Source: Spiroplasma turonicum (GTDB lineage Bacteria > Bacillota_I > Bacilli_A > Mycoplasmatales > Mycoplasmataceae). Taken from it: a stretch of DNA of 64,000 nt. Shown here piece by piece: positions 37,904 to 42,850 of this stretch. The position numbers and the translations under genes are program-made. The stretch's first letter is position 1; each line of letters begins with the position of its first letter. The DNA lies in the NCBI RefSeq assembly GCF_001262715.1, contig NZ_CP012328.1, forward strand, positions 992,001-1,056,000. Direction: 5' to 3'. The notes beneath the pieces were generated by a model. It was given only the letters and a program-made list of their open reading frames with translations, was not told the origin of the DNA and ran no database searches.

Positions 37904-38779
37904 CTAATTTCCTTTCAATTGTGCCGCAACTTCTGCTGCAAAGTCTGAAACTACTTTTTCAATACCTTCACCAACTTCGAATCTATACATATTTAAAATT
38001 GATGATTTTTTTGATTTTAAGAAATTACCTACAGTTTGTTTTTCATCAATAACATATGCTTGTTCAAGAAGTGTAACCTCAGCAATTTTTTTATTTAATT
38101 TTCCATTTAAAATGTTTTGTGCAACATTTTCAGGTTTACCAGTTACATCTGTAGTTTCTTTAATTATATGCATTTCAGAATCTTTGAACTCTTGTGGCAC
38201 ATCGTTACTTGATACATATTTTGGTGACATAGCTGCTACATGCATACATACGTTATATGCATCTTCTTTTGAAATATCTCCTTCAAAACTAATTAAAACA
38301 GATATTCTTTTATTTGAGTGGTTATAAACAGCTAAGTTTTTACCTTCAACAGCAGCAACCCTTCTTAATGAAATTTTTTCACCGATTGTTGCTGTAGCTT
38401 CTATACAAGCTTCATTAATTGTAGATCCACTGCTTAATTTTAAATTAAGTGCATCTTCTAATGAAGAGATATTTGATTGTAAAATTACTTTAGCAATTTC
38501 ATCAATTAATGATATAAACTTTTCATTTTTAGAAACAAAATCAGTTTCCGAGTTAACTTCTATAATAATAGCTTTTTTATCATTTGAAATAGCTAAAGAA
38601 ACACCTTCAGCAGCTACTCTATCTGCTTTTTTAGCGGCTTTTGCAAGTCCATTTTCTCTTAGTCAAACTATTGCCTCATCAATATCACCATTTGTAGCTT
38701 CAAGAGCTTTTTTACAATCCATCATACCAGCAGATGTCATTTCTCTAAGTTGTTTTATTAATTCAGTAGTAACAGCCAT
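37904..38779 (-). CDS. tsf: Elongation factor Ts
   Basis: 291 aa. It recharges EF-Tu with [25 protein letters not shown] with the following [13 protein letters not shown] is the N-terminal module; the core TDFVS and the [11 protein letters not shown] motif are present. The Trp in WLREN is TGA, which is why the frame looks short. Start ATG 38779 overlaps the rpsB stop by 1 bp (TAATG), so the two are translationally coupled. Confidence 0.96.
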
Positions 38780-39651
38780 TATTTTTCCTCCTTAACTTCA
38801 ACACTTTTTTCAGAATCAACAGGTTGTTTTGCAGCTTCTGCTTCTTTGTTATTATTTTGTTGATAGTTTCTTTGTTCATAATTGTTGTTTCTATTATAAT
38901 TATTTTCTCTTGGTTTATAATCTTCTTTTTTTTGTGCAACAAATTTTAAAGTTGTTGGTGCTAATTTAATACCTGCAAAGTCACCATATAATTCAGCGAT
39001 GTAATTAGTTATTATGTTAACTGACTCTTGAATATCATCATTTGCAGGAATAACATAATCAACCATATCTGGGTCAACATTTGTATCACAAATTGCTATT
39101 ACTGGTATTCTTAATTTTCTAGCTTCTTTTACAGCAATTTCATCAGTTTTAGGGTCTACAACAAACATAGCAGCAGGAAGTTTATGCATTTGTTTTATCC
39201 CACCCAATAGTTTTTCTAATTTAACTTTTTCTTTTTTTATTAAAATTTGCTCTTTTTTAGGTCTTAAGTTTATTTTTCCTGTTTTTTCTTCATTTTCAAT
39301 ATCTCATAAAGCTTTTATTCTTAGAGAAATTGTTTTCATATTAGTTAAAGTTCCGCCTAATCATCTTGAATTTATATAAAAGTTTCCACTTCTTATAGCA
39401 GATTCTTTTACAGCTTGTTTAGCAGTTCTTTTAGTACCTACAAAAATAATTTTTTCTTTTTTTGCAGCAATTTGTGAGATTAATTTTTTTACATCTTCAA
39501 GTTTTCTAACTGTTTTTTGTAAATCTATAATGTGATTTTTATTTTTTGAATTGTAGATGTAAGGCTTCATTTTTGGATTTCATCTTTTAGTTTGATGTCC
39601 ATATTGAGCTCCTGCATCTCATAATTGTTCTCTTGTTAAATCTTTAATCAT
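38779..39651 (-). CDS. rpsB: Ribosomal protein S2 with Asn-rich C-terminal extension
   Basis: 290 aa against ~246 in Bacillus. The opening [22 protein letters not shown] (Trp as TGA), [43 protein letters not shown] and the DDIQESV region are all S2. The extra ~45 residues are unlike other S2 tails: a low-complexity Asn/Tyr/Arg stretch ([19 protein letters not shown]) and an acidic end. Frame breaks at 39361 and 39571-39600 are TGA. A structured leader precedes it. Confidence 0.95.
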
Positions 39652-41373: not shown

Positions 41374-41655
41374 TTATTTTGGTAAAACACTAACTTTTGT
41401 TCTGTTTTTTCCAAATCTTTGGTACTTAACAACACCTGATATTAATGCAAATAAAGTGTCATCTCCACCTCTACCAACATTAAGACCTGGGTGTATTTTT
41501 GTACCTCTTTGTCTAAAAATTATTGAACCTGCATTAGCAAATTGTCCATCTGACTTTTTAGCCCCTAATCTTTTTGATTCTGAATCTCTACCGTTTTTAG
41601 TTGATCCAACACCCTTTTTAGAAGCGAAGAACTGTAAACCTAATAAAAATTTCAT
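41374..41655 (-). CDS. rpmA: Ribosomal protein L27
   Basis: 93 aa. The conserved [22 protein letters not shown] is L27, which touches the peptidyl-transferase centre. An N-terminal extension [11 protein letters not shown] precedes it: the LQFFA tag is cut off by Prp in Firmicutes. ATG 41655 has a strong AGGTAGGTG site; a GTG at 41664 is a weaker alternative. Third gene in rplU-prp-rpmA. Confidence 0.95.
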
Positions 41656-41656
41656 T

Positions 41657-41971
41657 TTATTCACCTACCTTTTTTATTATAAAATTCTCTGGATATTGAG
41701 TTGATATTGTTTCCAGTTGTATTAACAAGAAGTTTAATAAGATACTTACTTCTTTTGTGTTCTTCAATATATTAACACTAATTTTATTTGTTTTAACATC
41801 AATTTTAAAACAATCATTATAAAGAGAATCAAATGCATTTAATGCACCAGATACTATACCCGTTACAGCAGAACATACAATGTCTTTGCCATAATTATCA
41901 AAGTTGGCATGACCTCTAACATTAAAATTATTAATAGTTTTGTCTACGTAAACAAATTCAGCTATAATCAT
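41657..41971 (-). CDS. prp: Ribosomal-processing cysteine protease Prp
   Basis: 104 aa. It removes the N-terminal extension of L27 at LQFFA before assembly. The active-site His is in [12 protein letters not shown] and the Cys in DIVCSAV, both in the usual order. It is encoded between L21 and L27, the standard place. No ribosome site; its ATG follows the rplU stop at once, so coupling is likely. Confidence 0.92.
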
Positions 41972-41973
41972 TA

Positions 41974-42750
41974 TTATTTATTTTCAACTTTTTTTGTTGC
42001 TGTTTCTTTTTTTTCAGCTACAGCTTTTGTAGTTGTAGTTTTTTTAACAGCATCAGTTTTAGCAGTTGTTTTTTTTGTAACTGTTTCTTTTTTTTCAGCT
42101 ACAGCTTTTGTAGTTGTAGTTTTTTTAACAGCATCAGTTTTAGCAGTTGTTTTTTTTGTAACTGTTTCTTTTTTTTCAACAGCTGCTTTAGTAGTTACAG
42201 TTGTTTTAGTAGTTGGTGTTTTAGCTACTGTTTCTTTTTTTTCAGCTACAACTTTTGTTGAAGCACTTGCTTTTGTAGTTGTTTTAGCAGGTGTTTCTTT
42301 TTTTTCAACAGCTGCTTTAGTAGTTACAGTTGTTTTAGTATTTGGCGCTGTAGCAACTGTTTCTTTTTTTGCAGCAATAGTTGAAACTTTTGCTTCACTA
42401 TTAACTTCTGATGACTTAGAAACTGGCTTAGGTTTGTTTGATAAAACTCCAGTCAATGATACCTCATCAATTTTTACCTTTGTATATGGTTGTCTATGAC
42501 CATAAATCTTATTAACATTTTTTTTAGGGTGGTATCTAATAACTCTTAATTTTTTTTCTTTACCTTGTTTAAGTATTGTTCCTGAAACAACAGCATTTTT
42601 TATAAATGGATTACCGAAAGTAGAATCTACCATTAAAACTTCTTTAAATAGTATTTGTTCTCCTTCCTCTAATTTAACTTTTTCAATGAATATTTCATCA
42701 CCTTGTTGAACTTTAATTTGTTTACCACCTGTTTTAATAATTGCAAACAT
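41974..42750 (-). CDS. rplU: Ribosomal protein L21 with a long Lys/Thr-rich repeat tail
   Basis: 258 aa against ~100 in other bacteria. Residues 1-100 are normal L21: MFAIIKTGGKQIKVQQGD, EVLMVDS and VIRYHPKKNVNKIYGHRQPYTKVKID. The next ~155 residues are a basic tail of near-repeats built from AEKKET, TKKTTAKTDAVKK and TTTTKA. Two 27-residue units are identical at DNA level. ATG 42750 after GGAGG; the longer frame to 42849 reads through a -10 and leader and is rejected. L21 binds 23S rRNA; the tail may add RNA binding. Confidence 0.93.
   Translation of the reverse strand: MFAIIKTGGKQIKVQQGDEIFIEKVKLEEGEQILFKEVLMVDSTFGNPFIKNAVVSGTILKQGKEKKLRVIRYHPKKNVNKIYGHRQPYTKVKIDEVSLTGVLSNKPKPVSKSSEVNSEAKVSTIAAKKETVATAPNTKTTVTTKAAVEKKETPAKTTTKASASTKVVAEKKETVAKTPTTKTTVTTKAAVEKKETVTKKTTAKTDAVKKTTTTKAVAEKKETVTKKTTAKTDAVKKTTTTKAVAEKKETATKKVENK
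42001..42162 (-). repeat. Perfect 81-bp tandem duplication in the rplU tail
   Basis: 42001-42081 and 42082-42162 are identical. Each encodes 27 residues. Degenerate copies of the same Lys/Thr motif continue to about 42360. This shows recent expansion by slippage or recombination. Confidence 0.92.
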
Positions 42751-42850
42751 TATTTTACCTCCGAATAGACTCGCCTTGTATGTGAATATAAAATATTTCT
42801 TAAAACATACAAAAGAGCGGTTGAATCTACAACCTAAATAATTGTACATT
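42751..42850 (-). ncRNA. L21 leader RNA (Firmicute-type)
   Basis: The minus-strand leader ends in AGTCTATTCGGAGG just before the rplU ATG, the signature of the L21 leader. A TACAAT near the 5' end is a plausible -10. The role is assumed to be control by a ribosomal protein. Confidence 0.65.

Follow-up and report, generated by a model that had tools for sequence, protein, structure and literature searches.

The ribosomal protein L21 (bL21) of Spiroplasma turonicum, encoded by rplU, continues past a normal core into a basic C-terminal tail of 158 residues, rich in Thr, Lys and Ala, whose gene segment contains a perfect tandem repeat of 81 bp. Tails of this kind on L21 have been described before, and that of S. 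turonicum is an extreme, fast-changing example from Spiroplasma, a genus associated with insects. The gene lies in a 64,000-nucleotide stretch of the S. turonicum chromosome, referred to below as the window, and its features, with those of its neighbours, are collected in Table 1.

The L21 gene and its surroundings

With genetic code 4, rplU reads from an ATG at 42750 to a TAA stop at 41974-41976 and has no internal TGA codon. A first-pass annotation of this DNA had described a normal L21 followed by a Lys/Thr/Ala-rich tail. Both parts are real, as the PF00829 domain occupies residues 1-97 and the tail follows; the tail length given there, 155 residues, was right as to the existence of a long tail but falls short of the count of 158 (residues 101-258). 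An upstream start at 42849 (291 aa) was ruled out, as a GGAGG ribosome-binding site precedes the ATG at 42750 and the Pfam match begins there. A plus-strand gene over the tail (a frame of 196-198 aa) was likewise ruled out, the frame being the complement of the repeat. The GGAGG is overlapped by the 3' end of an L21_leader RNA, an element that usually stands upstream of L21 in Bacillota. PF04327 and PF01016 genes lie directly downstream of rplU, giving the order rplU-prp-rpmA. Enzymes of the Prp family cleave the N-terminal extension off L27, and motifs of the LQFFASKK type are given as Prp cleavage sites, among others for two further Spiroplasma species (PMC9405229). The L21 tail contains no cleavage-type motif like that of L27.

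Table 1. Features of the S. turonicum L21 region, numbered from the first nucleotide of the window, and the uL29 gene, located elsewhere in the same genome
Feature	Position	Strand	Evidence
rplU, ribosomal protein bL21, 258 aa + stop	41974..42750	minus	PF00829, 111 bits (cut-off 27); TIGR00061, 101.3 bits (cut-off 43.7)
bL21 core domain, residues 1-100	42451..42750	minus	PF00829 over residues 1-97; AlphaFold2 strands within residues 2-98
Thr/Lys/Ala-rich basic C-terminal tail, residues 101-258, net +23, predicted disordered	41977..42450	minus	
Tandem array, period 81 bp (27 codons), 2.7 copies, 92% matches	41989..42208	minus	Tandem Repeats Finder
Two 81-bp copies, exactly identical (98-nt match, offset 81)	42000..42178	minus	
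Older degenerate copies, period 66, overlapping rows of period 129 and 63	42137..42370	minus	Tandem Repeats Finder
L21_leader (RF00559) cis-regulatory RNA	42757..42832	minus	44.4 bits (gathering score 36)
prp, cysteine protease (family cleaving the N-terminal extension from L27)	41657..41971	minus	PF04327, 78.7 bits
rpmA, ribosomal protein bL27, with LQFFASKK cleavage-type motif	41374..41664	minus	PF01016, 120.1 bits
uL29 with 248-residue extension (own genome, outside window)	L067:11750-12694		

Composition of the tail and its DNA repeats

The 158 residues of the tail comprise T41 K39 A23 V19 E14 S8 P5 N4 D2 G1 L1 I1, with a net charge of +23. Lys, Thr and Ala together account for a share of 0.65, compared with 0.31 in the runner-up when the 57 open frames of the window that reach 158 codons, over all six frames, are ranked; with three residue types making up 65%, and with its tandem repeats, the tail is a low-complexity region. 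Its GC content is 0.31 vs 0.24 in the window (window G+C 24.0%). There are no aromatic and, Val aside, almost no hydrophobic residues, which counts against insertion into the membrane, and inspection of the sequence revealed no KPAA unit. Both other reading frames contain stops within the tail. The L21 coding strand (41974-42750) also carries nine A8 runs, ~10 per kb; none of the other 42 window frames longer than 200 codons exceeds 2.7 per kb. These runs are possible candidate sites of slippage.

The perfect 81-bp repeat and the degenerate copies noticed in the first pass were both recovered. The coding strand matches itself exactly over 98 nt at an offset of 81 (42178-42081 vs 42097-42000), and the older copies appear as rows of period 66, 129 and 63. 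The 81-bp array scores 370 in Tandem Repeats Finder, whereas the best row in the window outside the array scores 82, and a 35-mer from the repeat has two occurrences in the window vs none in 100 shuffles. In the 1.26-Mb genome the 35-mer was not found, at up to three mismatches, beyond its two places. A paralogous tail elsewhere in the genome was rejected as well: the sole other protein-search match falls within the same stretch and has six stops, and the DNA repeat is unique.

Assemblers can go wrong at short perfect repeats, and the first-pass annotation had allowed for an assembly artefact in this one. The assembly is a single contig of 1,261,374 bp, the same length as the published chromosome of strain Tab4cT (PacBio, 616x, mean read 13.7 kb; G+C 24.20%), and for another Tab4cT subculture, sequenced with 301-bp Illumina reads at ~288-fold coverage, the differences reported across the genome amount to only 12 SNPs and one 1-bp indel. 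As the 220-bp array is shorter than either read type, we regard an artefact as very improbable and the repeat as genuine. The 1-bp indel could conceivably lie in a homopolymer of the tail.

L21 tails in related genomes

L21 was present in, and extracted from, all 60 related genomes, S. turonicum included. Tail length was counted from 14 residues after the GH[RK]Q motif, by which rule the S. turonicum tail has 157 residues, as opposed to 158 from residue 101. Tails of at least 12 residues occur in 40 of the 60 genomes (20/20 in the genus, 10/17 in the rest of the family and 10/23 outside the family), contradicting the earlier claim that L21 tails are short elsewhere. The genus tails range from 15 to 157 residues (20/20 genomes). 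The tail has 0 or 7 residues in seven of the 37 family genomes, which suggests that it is dispensable over evolutionary time.

The composition of the genus tails is uniform. Lys, Thr, Ala, Pro, Ser, Glu and Val together constitute 0.91-0.98 of each (n=20); no aromatic residue or His is present in any of the 20, and none displays the composition of a shifted frame. Among the 40 genomes with tails of at least 12 residues, 35 tails are positively charged, four are neutral and one is negative. Within the genus, net charge rises with tail length (Spearman 0.95, n=20, uncorrected for descent), and the shortest tails are near neutral. Outside the family, tails of 50-100 residues (L049, L050 in G053 and G040, L054, L055 and L057) contain more Glu/Asp, Ile/Leu and Asn/Gln and little or no Ala, which suggests, as far as sequence can tell, that they have separate origins.

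In a wider, even sample of 149 genomes from the phylum, 147 yielded an L21 match, and the stop-to-stop L21 frame of S. turonicum, at 301 aa, is the longest of these, the next being 211 and 208 aa. The two genomes with no L21 match (G062 and G064) are rated 99% complete. Solved structures contain 47 distinct matching L21 sequences, mostly of 94-115 aa, with one 50S L21 chain of 147 aa (7jil_R); most of the longer chains are labelled chloroplast or mitochondrial. Structure 7ood is presumably from Mycoplasma pneumoniae, and its L21 (7ood_q) is 100 aa long and tail-less.

Evolution of the tail

A tandem repeat (score at least 50) is present in 15 of the 20 genus L21 genes, and every printed period is divisible by three. 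The units are 81 bp in S. turonicum, 45 bp x 4.4 at 100% in G012, 18 bp x 12.2 in G006, 48 bp x 4.1 in G013 and 18 bp x 5.2 at 100% in G002. In a tree built on the L21 core, the L29 core, Prp and L27, S. turonicum groups with G012 and G006 (support 1.0), with G012 as its sister (0.85). The first-pass annotation had proposed that copy number may vary between strains. Between Spiroplasma species, even near ones, both the number and the unit differ; no variation between strains was seen in the single S. turonicum strain covered, of which two subcultures are reported to differ as given above. At the level of the genes compared, these data show that the tail is built and rebuilt by in-frame tandem duplications that arose separately in each lineage, each with a unit of its own.

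Selection on the tail was estimated in 11 sister pairs picked from the tree after 46 non-independent close pairs had been examined. Pooled pN/pS from codon counts is 0.72 in the tails vs 0.02-0.29 in the cores, the tail values being rough, as they derive from gappy alignments of repeats. Four of the 11 pairs display an excess of synonymous changes in the tail (one-sided Fisher p<0.05). No such excess is seen in G014/G019 (1.37), G016/G018 (1.09) or S. turonicum/G012 (0.94), and the tails of G004/G010 differ by one nonsynonymous and zero synonymous changes. Taken with the composition, the alignments show that the tail sequences have kept their reading frame, composition and positive charge, that residue order is kept only weakly and that length is not kept.

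The uL29 extension and other ribosomal extensions

The uL29 of S. turonicum, encoded in a 19.9-kb stretch with S10 and spc ribosomal genes, is 314 aa long, with 248 residues past the core. An L29 match was obtained in 58 of the 60 relatives, and the extension spans 185-472 residues in the genus (20/20). It consists of a conserved start, present in tail-poor genera too, a variable middle and a conserved end module around KPKDAKTYTFGSNAEEAKKQIEEANKK. The pattern occurs in 24 of the 58 genomes, with a variant in G026 and G034; every one of the 20 genus genomes has the module of KPKDAKTYTFGSNAEEAKKQIEEANKK type, as do a few neighbours, and its alignment drew on the 26 family genomes whose extension is complete and longer than 150 residues. 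Pfam and NCBIfam scans of uL29 returned nothing above cut-off except the L29 core. Comparison of the endings of the L21 tails revealed no conserved end comparable to that of L29. The L29 end module resembles a docking peptide held on a long tether.

The lengths of the L21 and L29 tails correlate across 56 species (Spearman 0.53) and 23 genera (0.43, p 0.04), uncorrected for descent; the cut genes of G025 and G030, and G043 and G046, which gave no L29 match, were omitted from the 60. Within the genus the coefficient is -0.30 (p 0.19), and a functional coupling of the two lengths was judged unconvincing. Two further ribosomal proteins carry additional sequence. S2 (window 38779-39651, minus strand) has ~70 residues past its Pfam match (10-220 of 290), whose abundance of Asn, Glu and Lys sets them apart from the L21 tail, and S5 (L067:7985-8653) has a ~58-residue N-terminal extension, rich in Asn, Arg, Lys and Gln, before its Pfam domain.

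Predicted structure and comparison with known systems

The AlphaFold2 model of L21 has nine strands in residues 2-98 and a tail without secondary structure. The pLDDT is below 50 for 145 residues, all beyond residue 100 among the segments listed; the alignment contained only four sequences, such that low confidence in the tail was to be expected regardless. A search of the open-licence literature found no paper on this Spiroplasma L21 tail.

The survey PMC6821194, which we take to be that of Ntountoumi et al. (2019), is a close precedent in bacteria for a Lys-rich, low-complexity stretch on L21. It lists L21 among the ribosomal proteins with at least 20 orthologues bearing low-complexity regions, and more than 30% of residues are Lys in 34 of its 45 bacterial L21 regions (PMC6821194). 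The S. turonicum tail differs from these in its Lys content (39/158, 24.7%; a value above 30% is not a requirement in that survey), in being Thr-rich, in its length of 158 residues and in its recent perfect 81-bp repeat. Extensions of ribosomal proteins are also described in M. pneumoniae, where 11 of 52 proteins have them, mostly predicted to be disordered, and where their disruption affects fitness or survival (PMC9534751); a later transposon study describes such extensions as non-essential, yet often contributing to fitness (PMC12494982). The S. turonicum tail resembles them in coming from a member of the Mollicutes and, at 158 residues, in reaching more than 20 residues past the core and the E. 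coli end with predicted disorder. It differs in that L21 is not named in the main text of the M. pneumoniae report (PMC9534751), the L21 of 7ood being tail-less.

In the chloroplast, bL21c is almost doubled by terminal extensions, mostly on the solvent side, another known case against short L21 tails elsewhere, as are the published Lys-rich regions (PMC5071890, PMC6821194). Unlike the S. turonicum tail, the 97 extra residues of bL21c are spread across both ends (PMC5071890), and its core match starts at residue 123 (5mlc_T), which places much of the addition at the N-terminus. Bacterial long L21 proteins are also represented by PRK12278 (models NF008916 and NF008915, 216-223 aa), but the S. 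turonicum protein lies below both cut-offs, with 81.4 of the 193 and 63.5 of the 281 bits required, respectively. The histone-like Lys/Ala character suggested in the first pass agrees with a composition resembling H1-like bacterial tails such as that of AlgP. AlgP and PhaF have disordered Lys/Ala repeat tails of ~150 residues with variable copy number, although, unlike the L21 tail, these are on non-ribosomal proteins and are built of KPAA units (PMC9239181). The KKE/D domains of snoRNP proteins are a further parallel, being Lys-rich disordered regions on rRNA-associated proteins, and AEKKE-type blocks occur in the L21 tail; these domains belong to eukaryotic proteins, and homology with the L21 tail is not claimed (PMC11528048).

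Proposed role of the tail

We give about an even chance to the view that the tail is a translated, disordered, polycationic surface element that aids the ribosome through non-specific RNA contacts and is probably dispensable. The tail would be translated and retained on L21. As bL21 lies at the 50S surface, it would project as a flexible cationic arm, touching weakly and non-specifically the rRNA of its own or a neighbouring ribosome, or other nearby RNA. Such contacts may help 50S assembly or local ribosome crowding, making the tail an accessory part that tunes fitness and is inessential. Bulk charge and flexibility would be what counts, with length set by repeat slippage or recombination. 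Published systems are consistent with parts of this scheme: bL21c is located at the surface of the chloroplast large subunit, where extensions mainly face the solvent (PMC5071890), the M. pneumoniae extensions are mostly predicted to be disordered and matter for fitness (PMC9534751, PMC12494982), and in yeast Lys-rich disordered domains collect factors around nascent rRNA (PMC11528048). The uniform composition of the genus tails and the rise of net charge with length also speak for it. By analogy, we infer a solvent-side cationic arm with weak RNA contacts. Points against this reading are the low constraint on residue identity (the pooled pN/pS, and the value for S. turonicum vs its sister), the seven family genomes with no tail or only 7 residues, and a charge of +23 that is small next to that of rRNA.

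The low constraint would also fit a near-neutral expansion of low-complexity sequence, in which replication slippage after the L21 core lengthens the gene and any basic sequence that is soluble and does not aggregate is tolerated, with no particular function. We consider this a serious possibility, though a less probable one, which comes close behind the RNA-contact reading because residue-level constraint is undetectable in the S. turonicum lineage. The tail pN/pS near 1 in three sister pairs, the differing repeat unit and length of near species and the family genomes in which the tail is missing or nearly so all favour neutrality. Against it stand the composition held in 20 of 20 genus tails, with the longer ones positive and with Ala and Thr high (GC 0.31 vs 0.24), the synonymous excess in four of the 11 sister pairs and, presumably, the cost of one translated tail per ribosome.

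Binding of the tail to the nucleoid or to the membrane's inner surface, positioning ribosomes much as AlgP and PhaF tie granules to DNA, seems unlikely. Its composition is like that of the DNA-binding, H1-like KPAA tails (AlgP; PMC9239181), and KPAA-type units do occur in some relatives (G012, G029); the S. turonicum tail, however, has neither these units nor an amphipathic or hydrophobic segment, and for a ribosome-bound tail rRNA and mRNA would be the nearer anions. More doubtful still is that the tail is made only in part, with a mix of shorter tails arising from slippage in transcription or translation at the A8 runs or from proteolysis. The density of these runs and the stops in both alternative frames speak for such a mixture, whereas A8 is a modest run length and the neighbouring Prp targets an L27 motif that is missing from the tail (PMC9405229).

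Implications for the Spiroplasma ribosome

A wider, and improbable, idea is that the Spiroplasma 50S subunit has a tunable disordered brush. The polycationic bL21 arm, its length reset by tandem-repeat mutation, and a much longer arm formed by uL29 close to the tunnel exit, with its conserved docking module, would jointly tether ribosomes to each other or attach them to the membrane or cytoskeleton of this helical cell, which has no wall, and repeat number would adjust the brush. The uL29 extension, with its conserved end module, is the more specific target and a better lead than the L21 tail. Ribosomal extensions are common in reduced genomes and their function is largely unknown. Spiroplasma L21 offers a natural length series, from 15 to 157 residues on a nearly identical core, and the sister genera include relatives that lack a tail; this set would permit a direct test of the importance of bulk charge and length in a ribosomal tail.
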